From: Ignavibacterium sp.
Lineage (GTDB): Bacteria; Bacteroidota; Ignavibacteria; Ignavibacteriales; Ignavibacteriaceae
NCBI GenBank assembly: GCA_018335755.1
Contig: JAGXRK010000045.1
Span: forward strand, 62,001 to 126,000
Reading direction: 5' to 3'
DNA length: 64,000 bases
Both the position numbers and the translations under genes were made by a program. A model generated the notes under the pieces. That model was not told the origin of the DNA, ran no database searches, and saw only the letters and a list, made by a program, of their open reading frames with translations. Of this stretch, positions 11,227 through 61,396 are shown piece after piece. Position 1 is the stretch's first letter, and every line of letters starts with the position of its first letter.

Positions 11227-11481
11227 TTACTCCTGCACATTAAATTCTTTAAGAAGATTGACTATGTTGTTAACGCTGTCGAAAGCTTCCGGTGAAGCCT
11301 TTGCATCGGGAATCTGAATCTTGTAATTGGTTTCAAGAAAAACTTTTAATGAAACCATTGAGAAGGAATCAACTATTCCGCCTGAGATGAGAGGTGTGTC
11401 GTAAGTTACTTCCCTATCGTCGTCTGATTCAAGGTATTCGTTTTTTACATATTGAAGAACTGTGTCTTTTATTGAGGCCAT
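11227..11481 (-). CDS. Acyl carrier protein
   Basis: The 84-residue acidic protein has the phosphopantetheine attachment site at Ser39 in GGIVDSFSMVSLK. The usual DSL is replaced by DSF, a form common in specialised carrier proteins rather than in the fatty-acid synthase AcpP. A GGAG ribosome site lies 7 bases before the ATG. It is the first gene of a tight pair with the Kbl-like synthase and follows an AcsA-type ligase by about 225 bases. Probably it carries the acyl group for that synthase (inference). A phosphopantetheinyl transferase would be needed and is not in the window. Confidence 0.85.
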   Translation of the reverse strand: MASIKDTVLQYVKNEYLESDDDREVTYDTPLISGGIVDSFSMVSLKVFLETNYKIQIPDAKASPEAFDSVNNIVNLLKEFNVQE

Positions 11482-11519
11482 TGTCTATCTCCGTTCTTTA
11501 GTTATTTCAAAAAATAATT

Positions 11520-11706: not shown

Positions 11707-13425
11707 TCACATATCATTTTCTAAAGTAGAAATATCTCCAATCTCTTCTCCCCATTCTTTTGCACGAAGAACACGTCGCATAATTTTTCCGCTTCTTGTT
11801 TTGGGCAGTGAATCAACAAACTCAATTTCCTGAGGCATTGCAAGTGCTGAAAGTTTCTTCCTAACGAAATTCATAATCTCAAGCTCAAGCATTTTTGTTT
11901 TTTCATTGCCGGGCTTAAGTGCGATGAATGCTTTTACGACTTCCATATTCATTGGATCGGGTTTACCGACAACTGCAGATTCTGCGACTGCAGGATGTTC
12001 GAGCAAAGCTGATTCAATTTCAAACGGACCAACGAGATGTCCTGCAGTATTTATCACATCATCATCTCTTCCGACAAACCAGAAATAACCATCTTCATCA
12101 ATGCTTGCCCTATCGCCGCAAAGATACCAGCCGTTTTGAAATTTTTTATCATAAGTTTCCTTGTTGTTCCAGTAAGTACGAAACATTGCAGGCCAGCCGG
12201 GTTTGAGTGCAATCATTCCGACAATTCCTTTTTTCTCAATCGGCAAATGAGTTTTCAAATCAACAACTGTTGCCGTGATGCCGGGAAAAGGTTTTCCCAT
12301 CGAGCCGGGTTTAATTTTCATTCCCGGATAATTACTGAGAACTATACTACCTGTTTCAGTCTGCCAGTAAGTATCGTGAAATGGAAGTCCGAATGCTTCC
12401 TTGGACCAGATAACCGCTTCCGCATTTAACGGTTCACCAACACTTGTAAGATGACGAAGTGAAGATAAATTATGTTTATTAACAACTTCAGTTCCTTCTT
12501 TCATCAAAGCACGGATTGCGGTTGGTGCAGAATACCAAACGGTAATTTTATGTTTTTCAATAAACTTGTACCACGTCTCAGCTTTGAAGCCGGCATCGAG
12601 CACACATTGAGTTGCAGCATTTGACCAGGCACCAATAATTCCATACGAAGTGCCTGTCACCCAGCCGGGATCTGCAGTGCACCAGTATATATCTTCATCC
12701 TTTATATCGAGAACATATTTTGCAGTAATGTATTGAGAGATTAAAGAGTAATGAACGTGCTGAGCACCTTTTGGTTGTCCTGTTGTTCCGGAAGTATAAT
12801 GAAGAACTGAAGGAGTTTCAGCTTTTGATGGATAAACTTTAAACTCATTTACTCGTTCTGCTTTATCCATATGAAAAGCAATTTCCTTTTCGCGGAGCGG
12901 TTTGCTGCCGTCATCATCAACTACAATGATATGTTTTAATGAAGGAAGTTGTTCAACAATGTTTCTTACTTTCGGCAGATGCTTTTTCTGAGTGAAGATA
13001 GCAGCAGTTCCTGCATCTTCCAGTCTTGTTAACAGTGATTCGGAACCGAATGCAGAAAACAATGGCTGGGCAATACCACCCATTTTTAGAATGCCGAGAA
13101 ATCCAAAATAAAGCTCCGGAACCTTATCCATAAACAGACAAACTCTGTCACCGGGATTTATCCCTACCTTCTGAAGAAAAGCTGCAATGGTGTTTGTAAG
13201 AACTCGCATATCATCAAACGTGTATTTTTTCTCCTCACCATTAAATCCTTCCCAGATGAGTGCAAGCTTACTAGCTTTTCCCATTCGGCAGATTCTGTCA
13301 GTACAGTATTCACCTATATTAATTATACTGCCATCTTTGTATTCAAGTTCATTGCAAGCGATTTGCCATGAAAAGTTTTTATATTCTTCTTCGTATGATT
13401 TCATATTCGGTTGGTATTTAAGCAT
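11707..13425 (-). CDS. acsA: Acetyl-CoA synthetase-like AMP-forming acyl-CoA ligase (AcsA type)
   Basis: 572 residues, the same length class as Bacillus AcsA. It activates acetate or another short acid as acyl-AMP and then acyl-CoA. Visible are the ATP loop YTSGTTGQPKGAQ (about 211-223), the WQTETGS motif, YLCGDRASIDEDGYFWFVGR of the hinge and the C-terminal PKTRSGKIMRR containing the catalytic lysine (near 548), which acetyltransferases often control in this family. An AAGGAG ribosome site lies 9 bases upstream. It precedes the carrier protein gene, so it may feed that pathway, but 225 bases separate them and acetate metabolism alone would also explain it. Confidence 0.85.
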   Translation of the reverse strand: MLKYQPNMKSYEEEYKNFSWQIACNELEYKDGSIINIGEYCTDRICRMGKASKLALIWEGFNGEEKKYTFDDMRVLTNTIAAFLQKVGINPGDRVCLFMDKVPELYFGFLGILKMGGIAQPLFSAFGSESLLTRLEDAGTAAIFTQKKHLPKVRNIVEQLPSLKHIIVVDDDGSKPLREKEIAFHMDKAERVNEFKVYPSKAETPSVLHYTSGTTGQPKGAQHVHYSLISQYITAKYVLDIKDEDIYWCTADPGWVTGTSYGIIGAWSNAATQCVLDAGFKAETWYKFIEKHKITVWYSAPTAIRALMKEGTEVVNKHNLSSLRHLTSVGEPLNAEAVIWSKEAFGLPFHDTYWQTETGSIVLSNYPGMKIKPGSMGKPFPGITATVVDLKTHLPIEKKGIVGMIALKPGWPAMFRTYWNNKETYDKKFQNGWYLCGDRASIDEDGYFWFVGRDDDVINTAGHLVGPFEIESALLEHPAVAESAVVGKPDPMNMEVVKAFIALKPGNEKTKMLELEIMNFVRKKLSALAMPQEIEFVDSLPKTRSGKIMRRVLRAKEWGEEIGDISTLENDM

Positions 13426-13539
13426 TGAGGGTCTCTCCTTGTTAAATGCTTGAGAAACTATGAAAGTTAAATAATTGACTCTACTAAATTAAGTAAAAAC
13501 TAATTATTAGAATCCCGATTCAGCTATTTTATTATAAGA

Positions 13540-13947
13540 GGCTGTCTCATAACTCATTTTTTTATGGTAACCGCAAGCTTCAGAGAGTGTTGCAGAACAA
13601 TAAATTGCCCCGCCATTTATGGCGGGGTTTTAAGATTACCATTCACTATTGGCTTTAGACCCCCGACTTAAAGGGTCTGTTGCAGAAGTCACATAATTGT
13701 CATTTCGACCAACGGGAGAAATCTTTTTCGCGACATATTAAAGGCTTTCTCAGTCTCCCGAAGGGATGCCTATGGCAGAAGACTCCTTTGAAATGTCACT
13801 TTCAGAATTATGCAACAACCTCTTAAAAGTCGGGGCAATGTACAGAAAAAATTTAGTTATGCAACAGACCCTTCAGCCTGCGAAAATATAACAAATACGC
13901 AACTTGAAAATTGCGGCTACCTTGTATTTAAGACTTTTGAGACAGCA
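13540..13947. repeat. Composite nested inverted-repeat element
   Basis: The outer ends are GGCTGTCTCA (13540-13549) and TGAGACAGCA (13938-13947), nearly the same ends as the ~130-bp repeats elsewhere in the window. Inside is a second perfect 14-bp pair, AAGGGTCTGTTGCA (13671-13684) and TGCAACAGACCCTT (13860-13873). That pair encloses a GTCATTTCGACC / GGGAGAAATC stretch typical of dispersed repeats in Bacteroidota. A third structure is the hairpin CCCCGCC-ATTTAT-GGCGGGG followed by TTTT (13608-13631). No transposase fragment is readable. I read this as one non-autonomous element inserted into another, between the acsA start and the GFVN-repeat gene end. Confidence 0.65.
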
Positions 13948-13965
13948 TCACATGTAAAACTTTAG

Positions 13966-14454
13966 TTAAAATGACCAGTTAACGATCGGGAAAAACGGAA
14001 ATGCCCCGCCTTGATCAATAATATTTATCAAACCGATCTGCAGACCATTCATACTTCCGGCATAGTTAACAAATCCCAATTGAAGTCCGCTTACCTTTCC
14101 TTTGTGGTAATTAACAAAACCGTACTGTAAGCCTTCAAACAGATTTTCAGTCAGATTAACAAAGCCGCCCTGAAATCCAAGAAAACCGCCGTCAACAAGA
14201 TTTACAAATCCGAATTGGGCACCAACCTGTTTACCGGTTGTCGAATTTACAAATCCCCAATCTATTCCGCTTACATTATTATTCTTTCCATAAATAATGT
14301 TCAGTCTTAAACCGGTAATAGAGGTATTCTCTGGAAATATCTGAACCGGATTAAATAGTGCAATTTGTATCGGTTTATCCTGAGCTAAGATGTTTTCGGA
14401 TGATATTCCGGATAAGATTGAAATTGCAAATAATAACACAAATACTTTTTTCAC
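13966..14454 (-). CDS. Secreted GFVN-repeat protein (LA_2272-like surface repeat)
   Basis: The 162-residue protein has a signal peptide (about 1-24, ending ILAQ). After it come at least five repeats of about 19-22 residues ending GLQxGFVN or close variants, the pattern of the LA_2272-type surface repeat family. Such repeats should form a beta-solenoid or beta-barrel-like array. The start is GTG with an AAGGAG site upstream. It is probably exposed at or near the outer membrane. No biochemical role is known to me. It lies 40 bases downstream of the peptidase gene on the same strand, so the two may be co-transcribed. Confidence 0.75.
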   Translation of the reverse strand: MKKVFVLLFAISILSGISSENILAQDKPIQIALFNPVQIFPENTSITGLRLNIIYGKNNNVSGIDWGFVNSTTGKQVGAQFGFVNLVDGGFLGFQGGFVNLTENLFEGLQYGFVNYHKGKVSGLQLGFVNYAGSMNGLQIGLINIIDQGGAFPFFPIVNWSF

Positions 14455-14494: not shown

Positions 14495-15808
14495 TTAATT
14501 TTTATCTTTAATTTTGATTTCAAGCCATTCTTCTAATTTTGAATATATAATTTCTCTATCATCGCTCGAAAAACTTCGGATTCTTGTTCTATGTGAACCA
14601 TTTGGATGAACCATTTTAATCGAATTGGTTTTACCTGTGAGACAGACTCCCGCTGCTGTCCATGGATCGTTACCTCCGTAAATAAAAATAAAATTTTCTC
14701 CTTCATTCTCTACCCATTCACTCATATCTTTCATTGGCTCAGGATTGAAAACAAGATTTACATCTTCGGGAATGAAGAACGGAGTTTGTCCATCTGCATA
14801 AAGAATGTATTCTTTGAATGGTTCTGTTTCATAGGCATAATATCCGTAATCTTTATAAGCCTGGTAAAAGAAAGGGTAGTAAGTTTTAATATCCTTATCA
14901 GAGAAGTAATCAACTCCGCTGTTTTTCTTAAAATGCTCAAAAATCTCTTCATCGCTTGAATTTGAATCGGGAATTTTCTCACATCCATCGGTACTCCACT
15001 GCCAGTAAGCAAAGGAGTATTCAAGTACTGAGTACTCAAATGCTTTTTCATCTCCCACTAAATTATAAGTTAACTGATTTTCCTCTGCATTATTCAAAAA
15101 CATTTGGTAAAATTTATCGCGATTTTTTAGTATATGAACCTGGAAATCATGCACACTCTGTCTGCATTCAGGAGTGGAAACATTTTTCAAAAACTCATAA
15201 ACTCTCTTATCCTCAATTGATCGGGCTATTGGAGCGACATAAGCAACTGTTGCATCCACATCATCCGGGTAATAGCGTCTGTGAAATATAACTGTTGAAC
15301 CGCCTTTGCTTATTCCGGTGCTTACCCATTTACCGGAGTAGTATTCTTTAAACTTTGAAATAATTCTGTGATGATCCTCGGCTGATTGACGGATATCAAG
15401 ATACTCCCAGTCAAATGGTTGAGGCACAGATTCACCAAAGTATCTGTGTTCAACAAGCATCTGGTTTGATTTAAATATTCTGCTTAACTCATTTGGTCTG
15501 TTTCTAACTGAATAACCGTCCAGTTCAACAACCATTGGAAGGTTTTTATCAATATGTGATAGATAAATTTTTTGTGTGTACTTTGGACTAAGCGGATTGA
15601 AATGATCAACCGGCTGCTCAATAAATATTTCATATATTTCTGTAAATGCAGAATCGCCTTCAATTTTCTTAATGGTAAGATCAGGTTGCAAATTAAGCCA
15701 TTCAAACAAACTGATATCTGAATCAGCAGTTACTTGTGAAGTTGAACATGCAGAAAGATTAAGTACGATAAAAAGTAACAGTAAAATGTAATTACGGTGA
15801 GATTTCAC
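14495..15808 (-). CDS. S28/S37-type serine peptidase lipoprotein
   Basis: The 437-residue protein has a lipobox (LNLSACSTS, Cys about 21), so it is probably a membrane-anchored lipoprotein. It shows the tripeptidyl/prolyl peptidase pattern of families S28 and S37: QPVDHFNP near the N terminus, VEHRYFGES, and the nucleophile Ser in GISKGGST near residue 166. Then follow GGNDPWTAAG with the likely catalytic Asp and NGSHRTRI with the likely His. These enzymes release short peptides, often after proline. The GTG start has an AGGAG site. Family S37 fits best; substrate unknown. Confidence 0.78.
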   Translation of the reverse strand: MKSHRNYILLLLFIVLNLSACSTSQVTADSDISLFEWLNLQPDLTIKKIEGDSAFTEIYEIFIEQPVDHFNPLSPKYTQKIYLSHIDKNLPMVVELDGYSVRNRPNELSRIFKSNQMLVEHRYFGESVPQPFDWEYLDIRQSAEDHHRIISKFKEYYSGKWVSTGISKGGSTVIFHRRYYPDDVDATVAYVAPIARSIEDKRVYEFLKNVSTPECRQSVHDFQVHILKNRDKFYQMFLNNAEENQLTYNLVGDEKAFEYSVLEYSFAYWQWSTDGCEKIPDSNSSDEEIFEHFKKNSGVDYFSDKDIKTYYPFFYQAYKDYGYYAYETEPFKEYILYADGQTPFFIPEDVNLVFNPEPMKDMSEWVENEGENFIFIYGGNDPWTAAGVCLTGKTNSIKMVHPNGSHRTRIRSFSSDDREIIYSKLEEWLEIKIKDKN

Positions 15809-50444: not shown

Positions 50445-50825
50445 CTAACTCAACTTTATCGGCAGCTTTCTGATTCTTTTTCCTGTAGCATTATAAATGG
50501 CATTAAGCAGAGCCGGGGCTGCAGCTGCAACTCCAACTTCACCCACCACGCCAACCGGAAAATCATTCTGCATTAAATGGGTTTCCATTAAAGGTGTTTC
50601 ACCATATTCAAGAATGGGATAGTCAAAATAGTTACTGTTCTCTATTCTGCCATTCCGAATAATAATTTCGCCCTTCAAAGCCGCGGAAATTGCAAAAATA
50701 ATTGCACCTTCCATTTGTGCTTCAACAGTATCAGGATTTATCACAATTCCACAATCTATAACGGAAACAAATCGATCCATTTTAATTTTGTTATTCTTCA
50801 TGGTTACTTCAGCAACTCTACCCAC
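50445..50825 (-). pseudogene. C-terminal stump of a molybdopterin-binding hydroxylase subunit (xanthine dehydrogenase family)
   Basis: 126 residues align only with the end of large molybdopterin subunits of the xanthine dehydrogenase / isoquinoline 1-oxidoreductase beta type (about 700 residues): VSVIDCGIVINPDTVEAQMEGAIIFAISAALKGEI, NSNYFDYPILEYGETP and VGVVGEVGVAAAAPALLNAIYNATGKRIRKLPI. It contains GEVGV where the catalytic Glu loop lies. Upstream, the frame reaches a stop after LLVG, so more than 500 N-terminal residues are absent. The GTG start has no convincing ribosome site. I read it as the remnant of a deleted gene; no small iron-sulfur or FAD partner genes are near. Confidence 0.75.
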
Positions 50826-51374: not shown

Positions 51375-52274
51375 ATGATCAGAACTGATCTATATAATGA
51401 ATTACTAGACGAAATAATAAATACCCGAACCTACCTTCTAGATAAACCGGAAGAGTCCCCGGAGAATGCTCTACGTGCTCTTTGGTTCTTAGCGGGGGGT
51501 GATCCAAGGGCAGTAGAACGCTGCCTCGAGGAAGATCTACCGATTTTATCGGAAACTTCGGTTAATCGCCTGAGAAATCTTCTCAAGAAACACATCCATG
51601 GTGTACCCCTAGCACATCTTACCGGACGTCAGCGGTTCATGGATATCGAGTTCTTGGTTGGTCCAGAAGCACTGATTCCACGTAAGGAGACAGAGATTCT
51701 TGGTTATGCTGCACTTGAGAAGATACGGGAAACTGTGGCAACGGGCGGATTTTCTAACATAATTGATTTATGCACCGGTAGTGGCAACCTTGCGCTGGCA
51801 CTTGCATATCACGAGCCCAAATGCAGGATTTTTGGTGCCGATCTATCAGTAGATGCTATTACTCTAGCACAACGGAATGCGGTACATCTTGCACTTCAAG
51901 ATCGGCTGAAATTTTCAGTAGGTGATTTATTTGCCCCATTTGCCCATGATCAATATTTCGGACAAATCGATATGGTAGTTTGTAATCCTCCCTATATCTC
52001 TAGCCAAAAGGTGACAGAGATGTCAGCTGAAGTTAGTAATTACGAACCGAGACTTGCCTTCGACGGTGGACCCTTCGGCTTATCTATTCTGGTAAGGCTG
52101 ATTGCTGAGGCCCCACAATATCTTAAAAAGGGAGGGTGGCTTGGATTTGAAGTCGGGCTTGGACAGGGAAATTTTATAAAGAAAAGGCTAGAACGCAATA
52201 ATTCGTACTCTGACATTCAAATGTTCCCCGATATGGCGGGAAATCCACGAGCTGTTTTAGCACGATGTATCTAA
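51375..52274 (+). CDS. PrmC/HemK-like N5-glutamine methyltransferase
   Basis: 299 residues, close to PrmC length. Helical N-terminal domain (1-about 95, ending LTGRQRFMDIEFLV), then an S-adenosylmethionine fold with IIDLCTGSGNLALALA (about 129-144), GADLSVDAITLAQRN and the amide-binding NPPY at 204-207. The usual IPRPETE reads IPRKETE. PrmC methylates the GGQ glutamine of release factors; related enzymes methylate other proteins or small molecules. It is not next to prfA. Its base composition is clearly richer in G and C than its surroundings and codon choice differs (more GGC, CGG, CTC), suggesting transfer from another genome and possibly a second, specialised copy. Confidence 0.8.
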   Translation: MIRTDLYNELLDEIINTRTYLLDKPEESPENALRALWFLAGGDPRAVERCLEEDLPILSETSVNRLRNLLKKHIHGVPLAHLTGRQRFMDIEFLVGPEALIPRKETEILGYAALEKIRETVATGGFSNIIDLCTGSGNLALALAYHEPKCRIFGADLSVDAITLAQRNAVHLALQDRLKFSVGDLFAPFAHDQYFGQIDMVVCNPPYISSQKVTEMSAEVSNYEPRLAFDGGPFGLSILVRLIAEAPQYLKKGGWLGFEVGLGQGNFIKKRLERNNSYSDIQMFPDMAGNPRAVLARCI

Positions 52275-52758: not shown

Positions 52759-53715
52759 TTATTTCAGCTCAAGGGGTTCTGTTCTAAGATATTCAGTTGT
52801 CTGAATCTTTCTTTTAATATCACTAATGATATTATTTACATTATCTTCTGAAAGATTCAACGCTGCGGCAATTTCAGAAACTTTATAGCCTTTCTCCCAA
52901 CCAAACCATACCTTGTCAAGAATTTTAAAAGGGGTTTTAAAGAAAAACTCTTCCTGAGTTTGCTCTGCAGAGTATGTATCAGTTGTGGGAGTTCTTTTTT
53001 GAATTTCCTCAGGAATCTGCAGGTAGTCGGCTAACTGATATACCTGTGATTTGAATAAATGCGCAATTGGTTTAAGATCCGCAGCACCGTCACCATGTTT
53101 CACAAAAAATCCCTGCTCATGTTCATTTTTATTACCTGTACCAATGACACAATAATTTTTAAGTTCAGCATAATAATAAAGCATACACATTCTGCTACGC
53201 TGTTTGAAGTTGGATGCTGCAACAATCTGCAAATATTCATTTAAATGAAGCCGTTGAGTTTTTTGTGTTCCATCGGCAGAAATAATAGTAATGTTGAAAA
53301 AGTTAAGCAATCCCTCCTCTTTTGGAATACCGATCTTCATTTTATAAGTGCTGTTATATTCAGGAAATATTCTTCGGACAGCTTCATCACGTCTTTGATA
53401 GCATCCGAATCCAAGCAGAGCATCACTGATCTGTTCGACCCTATACTGAACACCAAATTTTTCAGAGAGTTGTTTTGCAAGTGTAAGACTATCAGGACTT
53501 GAATCCCTTTCCGGAAGCATTAAAACGAAAACCCTCTCCGGACCAAAAGCTTTAACACACAATGCCAAAACAACCGACGAATCAATACCACCGCTAACAC
53601 CAATTACTGCCCCTTTTCTACGAAATTTAAAGGCAACAACCTCTTTCATTTTTTTAATAATGCGTTCTGCTTCAGAAGCAGCATCTATGTTTATCAGATC
53701 TTTTGTGAACTTCAT
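52759..53715 (-). CDS. NAD synthetase-like ammonia-dependent amidase/ATP pyrophosphatase
   Basis: 318 residues of the NadE family. PP-loop AVIGVSGGIDSSVVLALC (about 38-55), GTGNKNEHEQGFFVKHGDGAADLKPIAHLFKSQVYQLADYL and the later TPTTDTYSAEQTQEEFFF, where NadE usually has a shorter PSADLW-type segment. It lacks the glutaminase (nitrilase) domain, so it would use free ammonia. It forms an amide through an acyl-adenylate. Its place at the end of an operon with carrier protein, AsnB and AMP ligase (3-base gap after the ligase) suggests it modifies a product of that pathway and not NAD alone. True NAD synthesis cannot be excluded. Confidence 0.78.
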   Translation of the reverse strand: MKFTKDLINIDAASEAERIIKKMKEVVAFKFRRKGAVIGVSGGIDSSVVLALCVKAFGPERVFVLMLPERDSSPDSLTLAKQLSEKFGVQYRVEQISDALLGFGCYQRRDEAVRRIFPEYNSTYKMKIGIPKEEGLLNFFNITIISADGTQKTQRLHLNEYLQIVAASNFKQRSRMCMLYYYAELKNYCVIGTGNKNEHEQGFFVKHGDGAADLKPIAHLFKSQVYQLADYLQIPEEIQKRTPTTDTYSAEQTQEEFFFKTPFKILDKVWFGWEKGYKVSEIAAALNLSEDNVNNIISDIKRKIQTTEYLRTEPLELK

Positions 53716-53718
53716 TTT

Positions 53719-55314
53719 TTATTCCATTTGTTTGAGAATTTTTTTATCAATTTTACCGTTAGGGCTTTTAGGAAGAGATTCAATGAACACTACATATTTG
53801 GGTATCATAAAAATTTCGACATTCCTGCTGCAGTATCTCAACACATCTTTTTCGGTTATTATTGAACCGGGAGTTTTAACTATAAATGCTTTTATGGCCT
53901 GACCAAGTATTTCATCCGGGACACCAATAACAGCAGCCTCACTTATGCCATCGGCTGAACACAAAATATTTTCCAGCTCTTTCGGACTTACCCGCTCACC
54001 TTTTGTTTTTATCATATCATCTTTTCGTCCTACAAAGTAAAGATATCCTTCTTCATCCTGGTAAAAGAAATCACCGGTATATAATAATTTTTCTCTGTGA
54101 AACCAGCCGTCTTTATAAACTTTTTCTGATAAATCCTGTGAGTTCCAGTAACCTCTCATAACATTTGTACCACGTACAACTAATTCACCTATTTCATTAG
54201 GCTTAACAAATTCTCTATTTTCATTAACAATAAACACTTCACAATTGGGCATTGCTTTTCCTACAGAGCCGGGCTTACGATCAATATCTTCAGGAGGAAG
54301 GTATGCAATGCGTTTACATTCAGTTAATCCGAACATAGAAAATATCTGAACGGTGTGAAATAATTTTCTGAACGCTTTAATATGCTCCACAGGCAGAGCA
54401 GCTCCTGTATTCGAAATGTACCTGAGACTGCTTAGATCATAATTTTTGAGTGTTTCCATTTTCAGAAGCATAACAAGCAAAGTAGGAACTATAGGGAAAC
54501 CAGTAACTTTTTTGGACTCAATTTTTTTAATTAATTCAAGTGGGAATAACATTGATCTTTCCAGAACTATAGTTCCTCCATACATAAAACACATAATTAC
54601 CTGATAGAGTCCATAGTCGAATGACAGAGGCAGTACCGTCAGGACAATATCATCGGGTGTATTCTTTATGTATGATATTATGCTTCTCGCTGCAGATATC
54701 ATATTATTGTGGGAAGACATCACACCTTTTGGCTCTCCGGTAGAACCAGAAGTATAAATTAGAGTTGAAAGATCATAATCAATTACCGACCGCTTTCTTG
54801 ATTCCAGAGTTATTTTCTGATTAACATCAGTGTCAGTGATAAGGTCACGCCATTTGTTTTTACTTTCAGTGTTATTATCAGAAGTATCACCAAACCAGAT
54901 AACTTCCGGAACTGATTTAATTTTTTCAAGCGTGGATCTAACTACCTCAGAATTTTTAATATCTGCAATTATCACAGAAGGCGAGGAATCCTTTATGATG
55001 AAGTGCAGTTTGGGAGCTTTAAGAGAACCGTTTAACAAAACAAAAGAGGCACCAGTTTTCAGCACAGCATATAAAGCAATTACCACTTCAGCGGAGTTAT
55101 CACCAAAAATTATTACTCTATCATGACGTTTAACTCCCAGCCCAATCAGGCTAAATGCAAGATTATCTGTCAGTTCATCAAGTTTTTTGTAGGAATAGAT
55201 TTCTGAATTAAACAGGAGAGCAGGTTTGTCAGGAAATTTATTAGCGCTTAGTGTTAAATATTCATGCACCAGCACAGGACTGAATAATTCTGAAGTTATT
55301 TGTGTTCGAGACAT
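53719..55314 (-). CDS. AMP-dependent acyl/aminoacyl ligase
   Basis: 531 residues of the adenylate-forming family: LIYTSGSTGEPKGVMSSHNN (about 190-209), FGLTECKRIAYLPPED, LLYTGDFFYQDEEGYLYFVGRKDDMIKTKGERVSP and a C-terminal PKSPNGKIDKKIL with the catalytic Lys. It is the length of ligases that load free-standing carrier proteins, and resembles exosortase-associated acyl ligases and D-alanine-carrier ligases. It is in one operon with a carrier protein, AsnB and the NadE-like gene, so it probably loads that carrier (inference). Substrate unknown. Upstream, the repeat copy C separates it from asnB. Confidence 0.85.
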   Translation of the reverse strand: MSRTQITSELFSPVLVHEYLTLSANKFPDKPALLFNSEIYSYKKLDELTDNLAFSLIGLGVKRHDRVIIFGDNSAEVVIALYAVLKTGASFVLLNGSLKAPKLHFIIKDSSPSVIIADIKNSEVVRSTLEKIKSVPEVIWFGDTSDNNTESKNKWRDLITDTDVNQKITLESRKRSVIDYDLSTLIYTSGSTGEPKGVMSSHNNMISAARSIISYIKNTPDDIVLTVLPLSFDYGLYQVIMCFMYGGTIVLERSMLFPLELIKKIESKKVTGFPIVPTLLVMLLKMETLKNYDLSSLRYISNTGAALPVEHIKAFRKLFHTVQIFSMFGLTECKRIAYLPPEDIDRKPGSVGKAMPNCEVFIVNENREFVKPNEIGELVVRGTNVMRGYWNSQDLSEKVYKDGWFHREKLLYTGDFFYQDEEGYLYFVGRKDDMIKTKGERVSPKELENILCSADGISEAAVIGVPDEILGQAIKAFIVKTPGSIITEKDVLRYCSRNVEIFMIPKYVVFIESLPKSPNGKIDKKILKQME

Positions 55315-55345
55315 ATAAGAGATTTATAATTATTTAAATAATTGA

Positions 55346-55478
55346 GGCTGACTCAAAAGTAATGTTTTCTCGATAATTTTTCTGTCCCGATGCATCGGGA
55401 CAGAAAAAACTCGAAAACCGACCGCAATAAAAGGTTCTCGAGTATTGAAATGTATCGAGAGAACCTTTTGAGACAGCC
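55346..55478. repeat. Dispersed ~130-bp MITE-like repeat, copy C (inside an operon)
   Basis: Ends are GGCTGACTCA and TGAGACAGCC. It has the central CTGTCCCGAT / ATCGGGACAG hairpin and the GGTTCTCGAG ... TCGAGAGAACC pair found in copy A. It sits in the 194-base gap between asnB and the AMP ligase gene, in an operon whose other gaps are 3 bases, so it probably arrived after the operon formed. Its hairpins may weaken transcription or change transcript stability downstream. Confidence 0.8.
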
Positions 55479-55508
55479 CCGCAAAAAAAATGATTGTTTA
55501 AAGAAAAA

Positions 55509-57470
55509 TTAATTTCTCAGATCAAATACGATATCAAAATTGCCCATAGCAGTATAATCAGGACTGAAACTTTTGATAAATTTTTCTTGAATTATCTGCG
55601 CAGATAATATTCCTATAAGAGCCATATTATCTACCTCGCCAGCCTTTTCAAATTTATTCATCTTATTTAATAGCAGGCTGACTTTTTTAAAATCAAAGAG
55701 ACCAGCTTCAGTAAGTGAATCATAAGATAAATATTTTTCAATCAAAGTCTTATCAAAAAGAATACCTTGTTTAATAGGCGCCCTGTAAGGATTCTTATCA
55801 CGGTTAAGAACTTTATCCGGAAGAATATCTTTAAAGATTTTCTTCAATAAAAACTTTTCATTCAAGCCGTTTATTTTTAATTCAGGATCAACATTACTCA
55901 TCCGTTCAATAATTCTATAATCCAAAAACGGCATCCGCATTTCAACAGAATGAGCCATTGCAGCCCTGTCTCCCTGAGATGAAAGCAGATAGTTGCTTAA
56001 AAAAACTGAAATTTCTAAGTACTGTGCCTTGCTCAGGTAATTCCATTTATAAAAATCTGAAGGCAGATCCTTAAGCAATTCATCTAAAGAATTGTGGTTT
56101 TCGAGTTCCGCTTTAAGTTTCGGCGAAAAGAATGTTTTAATCTTTGAAGTATTGTTCCATCTTATAATATGAGAAAAAAAAGGATTGCCCGGATCATCAA
56201 TTCCAAAACGAAAAAATTCAGTTAAAGAATCGTTCAGACGTTTATCCTTGAATATGTAAGGATAAAGTTTTGCCAGCAGTGCTGGACGCATCTTAGAATC
56301 GGGATACTTTGCCCAGAAATTTCTGATTTTCGTTTCTTTGAAGATATTATAACCACCGAATATCTCATCAGCACCCTCACCGGTGAGAACTACCTTGTAG
56401 CCGCTTTTGTGAACAAGCCGTGATAGAAGGTATAAAGGTATAGGGGCAGTTCGCAAGAGTGGTTTTTCAGTAAACCATAGTAACGACTCAAGATTTTGAG
56501 CAATATCAGAATTATTAATGAACAATTCAGAGTGATCAACACCGAGGTAGTTGACCATTTCCTGCTGATACTCACCCTCATCAAAATCACCAGCTTCGAA
56601 TCTTATACCAAAGGTTCTAAGTTTATTATTAAAATTCTTTTTTACAGTTGAAGTAATTCCGGAAGAGTCTAATCCCCCGCTCAGGTAGGTTCCAACAGGA
56701 ACATCGGCACGCAAACGTATCTTTACAGCATCGAAAAGCAGTTCGCTGACATTTTCTATCAGCTTTTCTCTGTTATTTTCTGACTCAGCGGATGAAAAAG
56801 GAATATGCCAGAATTTATCTATTTTTATTCCATTACTATCCGCAAATAAAAAATGACCCGGCGAGAGCTCAAAGATCCCATCAAATAATGTTTTACCCTT
56901 TAAAGTTGTCCAGAAGGTAAAAACCTGATCGAGTGCCTGATAATCAATTTGGCATGATATACCAGGCAGAGAAAGAATTGCTTTAATCTCTGATGAAAAA
57001 ATTAACTGGTTATTATGCAAAGTATAAAACAATGGCCGGATACCAACACGGTCGCGAGCAATAAACAAAGATTTCTTTTTAGAATCCCATATAGCAAATG
57101 CAAACTGACCGTTAAGCTTATGAACACAATTAATACCATCTTCTTCATAAAGATGAATAATAACTTCCGTATCTGTGGTAGTGTAGAATTTATGACCTTT
57201 TGAGATCAGATACTCTCTTATATCAGGATAATTAAAAATCTCGCCGTTAAAAATTATCCAGAGCGATTTATCTTCATTATAGATTGGCTGGATACCGCCG
57301 CGAAGATCAATTATGCTTAGGCGGGATTGTGCAAGAGCAGCGTTATCGTCGATATAAATACCCGTTTGATCAGGACCGCGATGATGCAGCAAATGCACCA
57401 TTTTCCGAATATCCGGAATATCGGCACTCAGTTTTCCGGAAGTGTTAACTATGCCGGCAATACCGCACAT
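55509..57470 (-). CDS. AsnB-type glutamine-dependent amidotransferase
   Basis: 653 residues. The N-terminal glutaminase has catalytic Cys2 in MCGIAGIVN, then LLHHRGPDQTGIY, FNGEIFNYPDIREYL and TDTEVIIHLYEE. The C-terminal synthetase domain has VPVGTYLSGGLDSSGI (PP-loop), VVLTGEGADEIFGGY and AHSVEMRMPFLDYRIIE. The family includes asparagine synthetase and many enzymes of surface glycan and exosortase loci that amidate other acids. Its position 3 bases after a carrier protein gene argues for a specialised substrate over free aspartate (inference). Second gene of the minus-strand operon. Confidence 0.88.
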   Translation of the reverse strand: MCGIAGIVNTSGKLSADIPDIRKMVHLLHHRGPDQTGIYIDDNAALAQSRLSIIDLRGGIQPIYNEDKSLWIIFNGEIFNYPDIREYLISKGHKFYTTTDTEVIIHLYEEDGINCVHKLNGQFAFAIWDSKKKSLFIARDRVGIRPLFYTLHNNQLIFSSEIKAILSLPGISCQIDYQALDQVFTFWTTLKGKTLFDGIFELSPGHFLFADSNGIKIDKFWHIPFSSAESENNREKLIENVSELLFDAVKIRLRADVPVGTYLSGGLDSSGITSTVKKNFNNKLRTFGIRFEAGDFDEGEYQQEMVNYLGVDHSELFINNSDIAQNLESLLWFTEKPLLRTAPIPLYLLSRLVHKSGYKVVLTGEGADEIFGGYNIFKETKIRNFWAKYPDSKMRPALLAKLYPYIFKDKRLNDSLTEFFRFGIDDPGNPFFSHIIRWNNTSKIKTFFSPKLKAELENHNSLDELLKDLPSDFYKWNYLSKAQYLEISVFLSNYLLSSQGDRAAMAHSVEMRMPFLDYRIIERMSNVDPELKINGLNEKFLLKKIFKDILPDKVLNRDKNPYRAPIKQGILFDKTLIEKYLSYDSLTEAGLFDFKKVSLLLNKMNKFEKAGEVDNMALIGILSAQIIQEKFIKSFSPDYTAMGNFDIVFDLRN

Positions 57471-57473
57471 ATT

Positions 57474-57728
57474 TTAAGAGTTAGAATTAAGTTTACGGTC
57501 AAGATAAGCAGAAACGCTGTTAAGGCTGGAGAAGTTATTCACCACTAGTTCTTCATCCTCTACTTTAACAGGAAAGGAGGTTTCAATAAACCCTACAAGT
57601 TCTATAATACCTGTAGAATCGATAATTCCTGAGCTGAAAAAATCAGTGTCATCTTTAAGTTTCTCTTCATCACCAAAAAGGAAATTATCGACAATAAAAT
57701 TTTTTACCAGTTCTTTTTTTTGATCCAT
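57474..57728 (-). CDS. Acyl/aminoacyl carrier protein
   Basis: 84 residues. The phosphopantetheine attachment Ser38 is in GIIDSTGIIELVGFIE, with DST in place of the fatty-acid DSL. Acidic, helical, no signal peptide. It starts the operon carrier - AsnB - [repeat] - AMP ligase - NadE-like. The sequence is different from the carrier at 11227. The likely role is to hold an acyl or aminoacyl group activated by the ligase while it is amidated or transferred (inference). No clear ribosome site. Confidence 0.84.
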   Translation of the reverse strand: MDQKKELVKNFIVDNFLFGDEEKLKDDTDFFSSGIIDSTGIIELVGFIETSFPVKVEDEELVVNNFSSLNSVSAYLDRKLNSNS

Positions 57729-58519: not shown

Positions 58520-59038
58520 ATGAGAATAAAATTTATCTTAGCAACTTTTTTAATAACCGGATTTTATAATCTGGCTTTATCTCAAGATGACATACAGATC
58601 GGAAGCTCTGGCAGAGGAGGGATAGGGACTACAGGAGCTGTCTATGATTATTCAAATCCTTCTGGAGTCAACATCAAAGTACAATTATGGGGATATGTAA
58701 GAAATCCAGGATATTATATTATTCCGATTGGTTTAAGCATTCATGAACTTATCTCCTTCGCTGGTGGACCAACAGAAGACGCTACTCTTGATGACGTCAG
58801 AGTTGCAAAAATTAAAGAAGGTTCACAAACAGTTATGGAAAAATATAACTACAATGATCTAATGTGGAAAGATGATATTAAAGATCCTATTAGATTTGTT
58901 AGATTAGAAGCTGGAGATATAATAGTGATTCCTGGTAAACCAAGATATTTTGTAAGAGAAGATATTTCCTTTTATTTGAGTGTCATAACAGCTGTCGCTT
59001 CACTATGGGCGTTAATTTTTACTTTAACCCGTGATTAG
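58520..59038 (+). CDS. SLBB-domain polysaccharide export protein
   Basis: 172 residues with a signal peptide (about 1-21). Residues about 48-140 form an SLBB domain (INIKVQLWGYVRNPGYYIIPIGLSIHELISFAGGPTEDATLDDVRVAKI). It lacks the N-terminal Poly_export domain of Wza/GumB and ends in a single membrane helix (DISFYLSVITAVASLWALIFTL). It may be a reduced export or docking subunit at the start of the locus. It precedes the Wzc-like kinase gene by 117 bases on the same strand. Confidence 0.82.
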   Translation: MRIKFILATFLITGFYNLALSQDDIQIGSSGRGGIGTTGAVYDYSNPSGVNIKVQLWGYVRNPGYYIIPIGLSIHELISFAGGPTEDATLDDVRVAKIKEGSQTVMEKYNYNDLMWKDDIKDPIRFVRLEAGDIIVIPGKPRYFVREDISFYLSVITAVASLWALIFTLTRD

Positions 59039-59155
59039 CTGGTCTAAAATAGCTATTTTTTATAGACTTAAATGATATTAATTTAATCGATTTTTCTGGT
59101 GATTAAAAATGACAATAAAGAATGAATTCACTTTGATAATGAACAGGAAATTTTA

Positions 59156-61396
59156 ATGGATAATTTGAATTTTAATATTGAAAAGTACTTACACGGTAAT
59201 ACGAAATCAGCTAAAGATTATCTTCTTTTGGTAAGGAATAATCTGTTAAAGGTTATTATCATTTCCATTTTTGTAGCTTCACTTGTTGCTGTTTATGCAT
59301 ATCTTCAAGTTGATATCTACACCTCAAGATCTACCGTAAAAATAACCGAGCCCAATCAGAATGTGTTAGCGACAGGGTCAGGACAACGACCGGACATCGA
59401 CAGATTTATTGCAAATGAAATTCAAATTATTCAGAATTATAACACAAGAAAAAATATTGCTCAGGCATTGATAGACAGTTTTACTATTTCAAACAATAAG
59501 GATCTTCTTCATCTTATAAGTGCTGGTGAAGATCAAAACAGCAGCAGTCATAAATCGCTTGAACATATAACCGGAATTCTTGGCGGTGTTGTTTCAGCTG
59601 AGCAGGTAACAGGAGTTGATGTTATAAATATTACGGCGCAGTCCACTTCTGCATTTGAAGCAGCATTAATTGCTAATGTTGCTGCTCTTGAATACCAAAA
59701 GGTAAACCTTGCAATCAGCAGAGACAAGTTAACTAAAGTAAGAGAATTTCTGGAAAAACAAAGTGAAGAAAAATTAGCAGAGCTGAAAATGGCTGAGGAC
59801 TCGCTTACAAAATTCCAGGAAAGAGACGGAATAATTGCAATTGATGTTCAATCTGCGGGCATGCTAACAGAATTATCTAATCTTGATGCACAGAAACAAA
59901 CAACTAAAATGGAGTTAATGACATCAAATGAAGTACTTAAGCAATATAAGTTCTTTCTTAACAAGCAGGACCCGAAGCTAGTTGATTTTCTGGAAAATGA
60001 AACATCTCAGGCTTATATAAGTGTTTTACAGCAGCAGCTGGCAGAACTTCAGGTAGAAAGAGATCTTATTTTATCAGTAAAAACTCCGAATGTTGATGTA
60101 TCAAATAAAGTAAAAGATTATGATCAAAGAATCGAAGATCTGAAAAATAAATTGAATTCGGCCATAAGCAGTATAAAAGCGGAAGGATTTTCAGGAAACC
60201 CGGAACAGGTGAGAGAACTTGCCCGCAGAACAATTGATGAAGAAATCAGAAACAGTACTCTTTCAGTTCGGTTAGAGCAATTGGAAGCTGCCACAGCAAA
60301 TTACGAACAGCAGCTAAAACGATTACCAAAAACATCAACAACATTATCGCAATATCAGAGAGAAAGAGAATCAATTCAACAATTGTATTTATTAATAAAT
60401 GATAGATATCAGGAAGCTATGATCAATGAGCTTTCTCAATCCGGGAATGTAGTAATTATAGATACAGCCAGAGTTCCAGGCGCACCATCAAAGCCAAACC
60501 GAAGGCTTATGATAATTTTCGGAATTTTCCTTGGTGTAGCAGTATCTTTTGGTTTCATAATAATTAAAGATTTTTTCGATAATACTGTTAAAACACCAGA
60601 AGATATTGAGAAAAATGATATTAGCTTCCTTTCCTGGGTACCGCATTGTAAATTAAATGGTAAAACCTCGGAATACGAGAAGGAATTATTAACTTTATAT
60701 GAACAGAATGCCCCTGTTAGTGAATCATTTCGCGCCATTAGAGCTCGCATACAGCATTCAAGAGGTGAGAATGAATTACCTAAAGTTATTTTAGTAACTT
60801 CAGCTGCAGAACACGAGGGTAAAACTTTTATAGCCTTTAATCTTGCTGGTAGTTTCGCTCAATCTAACAAAAGAACTCTTATAGTTGATTGTGATTTCCG
60901 ACGACCAAGAATTCATGCAATAATGGGAACCGATAAAAAACCGGGACTTGTTGATTACCTTGCAAAAAAAGTGAAGCTGGAAGATATTGTAAGGTCTATC
61001 CGGCCTAATACATTGAGTTACATCGCTTCTGGAACCATTCCTCCCAATCCAGCGGAGATTTTAGAATCACAAGCGATGAAAAATTTTCTATTGGAAATAA
61101 GAGATTTTTTTGATGTTATAATCCTCGATTCTGCGCCTATTGTAGCTGTAATCGATGCTGAAATTCTTGCAAAGCAGGCTGACGGCACTGTTCTGGTAGT
61201 AGAATCGGAAAAAACTGAAAACCGTTTAATGAAAGATGCCGTTGATTTAATTACTAATAATAAAGTTCCTTTTTTAGGTACAGTTTTAAACAATTTCAAG
61301 TACAAGAGCGGATACGGATATTATTATAAATACTATTATCATTACAATAACTCTCCTGATAAAAAAGGAATTAAGAGATTTAAGATTAATTCGTAG
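59156..61396 (+). CDS. Wzc/GumC-type polysaccharide co-polymerase with tyrosine kinase domain
   Basis: 746 residues. A Wzz-type chain-length domain lies between membrane helices near 33-52 and 450-468, with a long coiled coil (about 180-400). The cytoplasmic BY-kinase domain has the Walker A variant SAAEHEGKT (about 549-557), LIVDCDFRRPRIH (Walker A') and DVIILDSAPIVAVIDAE (Walker B). The C terminus has a Tyr cluster, GYGYYYKYYYHYN (about 718-730), the site of autophosphorylation. It controls length and export of the capsule or exopolysaccharide. Cofactor phosphatase gene not seen. Confidence 0.9.
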   Translation: MDNLNFNIEKYLHGNTKSAKDYLLLVRNNLLKVIIISIFVASLVAVYAYLQVDIYTSRSTVKITEPNQNVLATGSGQRPDIDRFIANEIQIIQNYNTRKNIAQALIDSFTISNNKDLLHLISAGEDQNSSSHKSLEHITGILGGVVSAEQVTGVDVINITAQSTSAFEAALIANVAALEYQKVNLAISRDKLTKVREFLEKQSEEKLAELKMAEDSLTKFQERDGIIAIDVQSAGMLTELSNLDAQKQTTKMELMTSNEVLKQYKFFLNKQDPKLVDFLENETSQAYISVLQQQLAELQVERDLILSVKTPNVDVSNKVKDYDQRIEDLKNKLNSAISSIKAEGFSGNPEQVRELARRTIDEEIRNSTLSVRLEQLEAATANYEQQLKRLPKTSTTLSQYQRERESIQQLYLLINDRYQEAMINELSQSGNVVIIDTARVPGAPSKPNRRLMIIFGIFLGVAVSFGFIIIKDFFDNTVKTPEDIEKNDISFLSWVPHCKLNGKTSEYEKELLTLYEQNAPVSESFRAIRARIQHSRGENELPKVILVTSAAEHEGKTFIAFNLAGSFAQSNKRTLIVDCDFRRPRIHAIMGTDKKPGLVDYLAKKVKLEDIVRSIRPNTLSYIASGTIPPNPAEILESQAMKNFLLEIRDFFDVIILDSAPIVAVIDAEILAKQADGTVLVVESEKTENRLMKDAVDLITNNKVPFLGTVLNNFKYKSGYGYYYKYYYHYNNSPDKKGIKRFKINS

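Follow-up and report, generated by a model that had tools for sequence, protein, structure and literature searches.

A carrier, AsnB, AMP-ligase and NadE-like gene cassette beside a polysaccharide locus of Ignavibacterium and its predicted role in making a carrier-bound amide acyl group

Gene content of the locus

The window analysed here is a stretch of 64,000 nucleotides from Ignavibacterium sp. (contig JAGXRK010000045.1, positions 62,001 to 126,000). It contains four genes that, according to the list of open reading frames, are transcribed from the minus strand in the order carrier, AsnB, AMP ligase and NadE-like protein (Table 1). Domain searches place a PP-binding domain in the first product, class-II GATase and Asn_synthase domains in the second, an AMP-binding domain with its C-terminal domain in the third, and an NAD_synthase domain without a glutaminase in the fourth. 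The original prediction had described a free-standing carrier with a DST site, a glutamine-dependent amidotransferase, an adenylating ligase and a NadE-like enzyme, encoded on one strand and separated by 3-base gaps except where a repeat has been inserted. These identities are borne out by the domain searches, the reading frames lie where it had put them, the measured gaps are 3 bases between the carrier and AsnB genes, 194 bases between AsnB and ligase and 3 bases between ligase and NadE-like gene, and the DST triplet sits in the GIIDSTG site of the PP-binding domain. The interpretation given in that prediction is supported in part; what it overlooked are a PrmC-like gene convergent with the cassette, the existence of two ligase types and the Dlt-like partners found in other genomes.

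Table 1. Features of the cassette and its immediate surroundings (positions in the window)
Feature	Position	Strand	Remarks
Free-standing acyl/peptidyl carrier protein	57474..57728	-	84 aa; phosphopantetheine site GIIDSTG
AsnB-type glutamine-dependent amidotransferase	55509..57470	-	653 aa; Cys2 and SGGLDSS intact
AMP-forming ligase, type A (PLSFDYGLYQ)	53719..55314	-	531 aa
NadE-like ammonia-dependent amide synthetase (predicted), PRK00876	52759..53715	-	318 aa
PrmC-like methyltransferase (NPPY), cassette-associated paralogue	51375..52274	+	299 aa; convergent with the NadE-like gene
Dispersed repeat between the AsnB and ligase genes	55335..55485		outside the function of the cassette
Divergent neighbours, start of the polysaccharide locus	58520..61396	+	
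Small polysaccharide-export-like protein	58520-59038	+	read from its own sequence only
Wzc-like tyrosine kinase	59156-61396	+	matches Wzc-like proteins adjoining the cassette in other genomes

The repeat matches 14 places in the genome well, with 11 of these matches spanning most of its length, and it contains a perfect 16+16 palindrome (55377-55408) between near-matching ends (GAGGCTGACTCAAAAG and CTTTTGAGACAGCCCC), features by which it looks like a miniature transposon-type element. In a close relative (L091) the AsnB and ligase genes overlap. Two further observations were made in the window. A 126-aa fragment at 50445-50825 (minus strand) corresponds to the end of a molybdopterin-binding oxidoreductase domain (MoCoBD_2) and is apparently a gene remnant. 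A second carrier-like reading frame (11230-11484, minus strand), which has no Pfam match, lies beside another AMP ligase gene (11710-13488, minus strand) whose product is 27% identical to the ligase of the cassette; this pair may possibly belong to another carrier-based pathway.

NadE-like and PrmC-like proteins distinct from the housekeeping enzymes

The NadE-like protein falls well within the subfamily NF002048 (PRK00876), which it matches at 451 bits against a cut-off of 313. Its AlphaFold model (pLDDT 86) matches NH3-dependent NAD synthetases (E 1.5e-19, TM 0.83 by target length), and neither the PP-loop (SGG-DS) nor the residues that align with the metal site vary in the family. While NadE shares this fold, the PP-loop and the metal-site residues, it lacks three hallmarks of the NadE-like protein: a characteristic loop, an insertion of about 55 residues and a set of obligate gene neighbours. 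The loop, TPTTDTY-AEQTQEEFF, is near-invariant among the aligned relatives (n=53; n=26) and replaces the PSAEL..Q-DQD of the canonical enzymes of this and related genomes; the insertion, at about residues 100-157, carries the conserved motifs CY-RRDEA and EYLQIVAASNF. Since loop and insertion are common to the whole family as against canonical NadE, the 'altered' TPTTDTYSAEQTQ segment to which the original prediction drew attention is real, yet it is a family signature rather than a peculiarity of this genome. Such an altered loop may signal an altered substrate. A match of the C-terminus to a LuxR-type HTH was ascribed to similarity of the C-terminal helices and not to a regulator.

The NadE-like protein is also redundant with NadE. 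The same genome encodes, elsewhere, two other full-length NAD synthetases of glutamine-dependent size, one of which may be foreign, as the assembly is rated 7.5% contaminated. Canonical NadE was found in this genome and in the six related carriers of the NadE-like gene; among 59 related genomes, only seven have a NadE-like protein over the cut-off, and these have a canonical NadE of about 550 aa. Because the carrier genomes also hold an ordinary full-length NAD synthetase, the NadE-like protein is an accessory, non-housekeeping enzyme. The PRK00876 subfamily is probably misnamed as NAD synthase.

The PrmC-like protein belongs to the HemK family, has the NPPY motif and exceeds the PrmC cut-off (TIGR03534, 216.5 bits against 199.1), all of which it shares with PrmC. 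Unlike PrmC, it is linked to the cassette and is a second copy: the true PrmC is encoded separately, on contig C12, and scores 261 bits as compared with 216 for the window protein. The latter is 40-46% identical to other cassette PrmC-like proteins and 26-37% identical to true PrmCs, and in a maximum-likelihood tree all cassette methyltransferases, including that of the window, form one clade (100/100) apart from the single-copy PrmCs of related genomes. Its assignment as the release-factor enzyme of this genome is ruled out by the separate true PrmC and by its own clade. Cassette-embedded genes of this kind occur in Bacteroidota/Chlorobiota (loci L048, L049, L056, L063, L070, L071, which has two copies, and L078), mostly directly behind the ligase gene, and a separate PrmC was seen in six of these seven host genomes. 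The two copies in L071 lie at 13141-14037 and 14839-15750, the second being the deepest branch of the clade. PrmC methylates the side-chain amide nitrogen of glutamine, so the simplest reading is that an amide produced by the cassette is the target of the PrmC-like protein.

Linkage, ligase types and the surface-glycan setting

A scan with the NadE-like protein alone yielded 48 loci from Bacteroidota, Chlorobiota, Zixibacteria, Acidobacteria and others, many of them MAGs, among which single odd taxa (a Methanosarcina bin, for example) may be misbinned; the addition of six loci from relatives brought the set to 54. AsnB is present in 47 of the 54, always on the same strand, and a ligase in 50, of which 48 have it on that strand, many of the misses being due to short contigs. 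Where at least 7 kb is available on both sides, all four genes are found in 22 of 26 loci. The NadE-like gene occurs in 13 of 393 genomes in an even sample of the phylum, and all nine loci newly read from that sample have AsnB and/or the ligase close to it. The four-gene linkage is far beyond chance, and the cassette, rare yet widely scattered among bacteria, travels as a unit; cultured bacteria with the NadE-like gene include Marinilabilia salmonicolor and Ancylomarina salipaludis. AsnB proteins from the same cassette in other genomes are 47-62% identical to that of the window. The order carrier-AsnB-ligase-NadE is found here and in L040, whereas other loci have carrier-AsnB-NadE-ligase or NadE-ligase-(others)-carrier-AsnB; as the gene order varies, the set is therefore held together by function and not by recent copying. 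Two complete loci (L086 and L089) have no ligase. In a related complete genome the cassette AsnB is split into two reading frames (L088:7968-9946), which suggests that the cassette is decaying in that genome. Full-text searches of open-licence papers turned up no account of the cassette or of its gene combination.

The ligases fall into two types, one with the motif P-[LM]-x-F-D-Y-G-L-Y-Q (type A, as in the window) and the other with P-F-[YF]-Y-C-Y-G-L-S (type B). The FD of type A aligns with that of amino-acid-adenylating domains, whose Asp anchors the substrate amino group in GrsA and DltA; the substrate of type A ligases is probably a small acid with an amino group. The NRPS code was used for this FD motif alone and was not taken further, because both ligase types share a conserved Arg that follows the TE motif. 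In two type A relatives a class-III aminotransferase gene lies between the ligase and NadE-like genes. Leaving the window aside, 7 of the 12 loci with a type A ligase contain the methyltransferase, as against none of the 28 others (Fisher P = 4e-5, calculated with kinship ignored). Since the ligase type changes while the rest stays, carrier, AsnB and NadE-like protein constitute the constant core and the ligase an exchangeable input. The carrier itself scores 25.2 bits against PF00550 (cut-off 20.8), among solved structures it is closest to free-standing peptidyl carriers and to D-alanyl carriers of the DltC type, and the site DS[TM]G/A is kept in 39 relatives. Ligase and carrier together resemble free-standing pairs that load amino acids.

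In the window the cassette diverges from Wza/Wzc-like genes, and Wza/Wzc, sugar transferases or glycosyltransferases lie near it in many other loci. The original prediction raised the question of whether the four genes always sit beside capsule or exosortase genes: the linkage of the four recurs across phyla and glycan genes are frequent neighbours, yet none are obvious at L044, L050 and L054. Further along the contig of this genome, at a distance of 14-23 kb, the same polysaccharide locus contains two more AsnB genes (L094:6456-8318 and L094:14765-16657, 8 to 17 kb beyond the window), which makes three in about 30 kb, the rest of the genome having no clear AsnB. A WbqC-family protein (L094:12401-13090) adjoins a PIG-L deacetylase and a glycosyltransferase in that locus.

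Candidate acyltransferases also accompany the cassette. Ten Bacteroidota/Chlorobiota loci encode an MBOAT protein (the one that was scanned scores 165 bits against DltB, cut-off 375), and several of these add SGNH-type proteins; one SGNH family in the relatives' loci has an N-terminal hydrophobic helix, invariant GDS and D..H motifs and, as its best solved fold, DltD at a weak TM of about 0.4. In five relatives of the present organism a hexapeptide acyltransferase gene directly precedes that of the carrier. The locus studied here contains no MBOAT gene, the single one of the genome being situated in another glycosyltransferase region on contig C10. Several hexapeptide proteins are encoded further along, among which there is no clear orthologue of the relatives' transferase (weak matches of 28-33%), so that for this genome the final transfer to an acceptor is presumed.

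With the Dlt D-alanylation system (DltA, DltB, DltC and DltD) the cassette shares a free-standing FD-motif ligase and a small carrier, beside which Bacteroidota relatives have a DltB-like MBOAT and an SGNH protein that may be DltD-like. It differs in having AsnB, NadE-like and PrmC-like proteins, in that the relatives' MBOAT falls under the DltB cut-off and in the lack of an MBOAT in the window locus; by analogy, some Bacteroidota cassettes resemble a Dlt system supplemented with amidating enzymes. The nearest named relatives of the ligase and AsnB are the exosortase-A (PEP-CTERM) EPS families TIGR03098 and TIGR03108 (eps_aminotran_1), which have a similar surface-polysaccharide setting, whereas the NadE-like and PrmC-like partners are particular to the present cassette. 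The original comparison with exosortase loci thus holds only in the sense of a distant relationship: both proteins fall short of the respective cut-offs (472 bits against 592 for the ligase and 437 against 817 for AsnB), and the genome has no match to the exosortase family PF09721, which rules out an exosortase cassette.

Proposed pathway and alternatives

It appears about evenly balanced whether the cassette is, as we propose, a mobile biosynthetic unit that makes a carrier-bound amide acyl group and delivers it to a surface glycan. For such a pathway we infer the substrates, the order of steps, the target of methylation and the transfer to glycan as follows. The AMP ligase would activate a small acid and load it onto the carrier. 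AsnB, with glutamine-derived ammonia, and the NadE-like enzyme, with free ammonia, would then turn one or more carboxylates of the acyl group or its precursor into amides, presumably via acyl-adenylates. In the subset of type A cassettes that have the PrmC-like protein, that of this genome included, the new amide nitrogen would be methylated. Finally, an acyltransferase would move the group to the glycan, the candidates being the membrane MBOAT with the DltD-like SGNH protein in Bacteroidota and the hexapeptide acyltransferase in the relatives of this organism. The linkage and the neighbours fit the original suggestion that a carrier-bound acid is amidated and attached to a surface glycan; its amidation on the carrier and its glycan endpoint are kept here as suppositions. 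Several observations count against the proposal. Two amidating enzymes exceed the need of one amide, two complete loci have no ligase, the MBOAT of this genome lies elsewhere, the hexapeptide matches are weak, the TM to DltD is modest, and AsnB kin amidate sugars.

This last point leads to a different division of labour, which is possible although we incline against it: AsnB (WbpS-like) or the NadE-like enzyme would amidate a nucleotide-activated uronic acid, while ligase and carrier would separately supply an N- or O-acyl group. WbpS-type AsnB homologues belong to the TIGR03108 family, to which the window AsnB is related at the score given above, and are required for the uronamides of surface glycans; AsnB relatives in surface loci are known to amidate sugars and not acyl groups (PMC7468200). 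Like the window protein, WbpS and PGN_1234 are AsnB-type enzymes of surface-glycan loci, and the polysaccharide locus described here has two more AsnB genes of its own. Moreover, deamido-NAD resembles NDP-uronic acids in being a carboxylate linked to a nucleotide diphosphate, which makes activity of a NadE relative on the latter plausible. Yet WbpS is described as a single enzyme of AsnB type in the Wbp sugar pathway, for which no carrier is mentioned (PMC7468200), whereas the AsnB gene keeps its place here next to those of a carrier and a NadE-like enzyme. A uronamide leaves the carrier unexplained, and the adjacency of carrier, AsnB and NadE-like genes across phyla, despite changing ligase types and glycan genes, argues for one shared intermediate.

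It is unlikely that the product is instead a lipid or a small secreted molecule and that the polysaccharide neighbours reflect genomic islands only. The best NCBIfam matches of the carrier, far below cut-off, are ornithine-lipid and cispentacin carriers, and the three loci without obvious glycan genes point the same way; against this, neighbours such as Wza/Wzc, sugar transferases or glycosyltransferases are frequent and the acyltransferases are of envelope type. Literature leads on the cispentacin carrier and on floc-forming bacteria gave no link to the cassette.

Quite improbable, in our estimate, is the conversion by the NadE-like enzyme of an AsnB-made amide to an amidine or similar group that the PrmC-like protein then N-methylates. 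This would account for two ATP-dependent nitrogen-inserting enzymes that are always together, as one amide would not need both, and N-methylated acetimidoyl groups, which occur in some bacterial surface sugars, offer a precedent. The reasoning is purely chemical, however, and an NCBIfam scan did not connect the sequence with the known PP-loop family that forms acetamidino groups.

Housekeeping synthesis of NAD and asparagine, with a duplicate PrmC, can be dismissed: it has in its favour the database names NAD(+) synthase and asparagine synthase, a score over the PrmC cut-off and the fact that the three AsnB genes of this region are the only clear ones of the genome, and is contradicted by the separate canonical NadE, the separate true PrmC, the family-specific loop and insertion and the linkage across phyla. 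Nor are the NadE-like protein and the cassette AsnB the only enzymes of their kind in the genome and devoid of conserved linkage, the case that the original prediction had named as contrary to itself; two other NadE and two other AsnB genes are present and the linkage is conserved.

Beyond the pathway proposed for this genome, we tentatively suggest, with rather more doubt than confidence, a wider generalization, in which the PRK00876 proteins would be carrier-dependent amide (or amidine) synthetases, the PrmC-like proteins small-molecule amide N-methyltransferases, and N-methylated amide acyl groups would reach glycans via Dlt-like or hexapeptide transferases. If true, such decoration would be a route of glycan modification for which we found no description. 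Many Bacteroidota and related genomes carry annotations affected by the probable misnaming of PRK00876. That the cassette has recruited a paralogue of a methyltransferase acting on a translation factor suggests a reuse of PrmC-type amide methylation, here with a small acyl group as substrate, which is a clear and testable biochemical prediction, and the cassette provides a handle on the surface-glycan chemistry of poorly studied environmental phyla.
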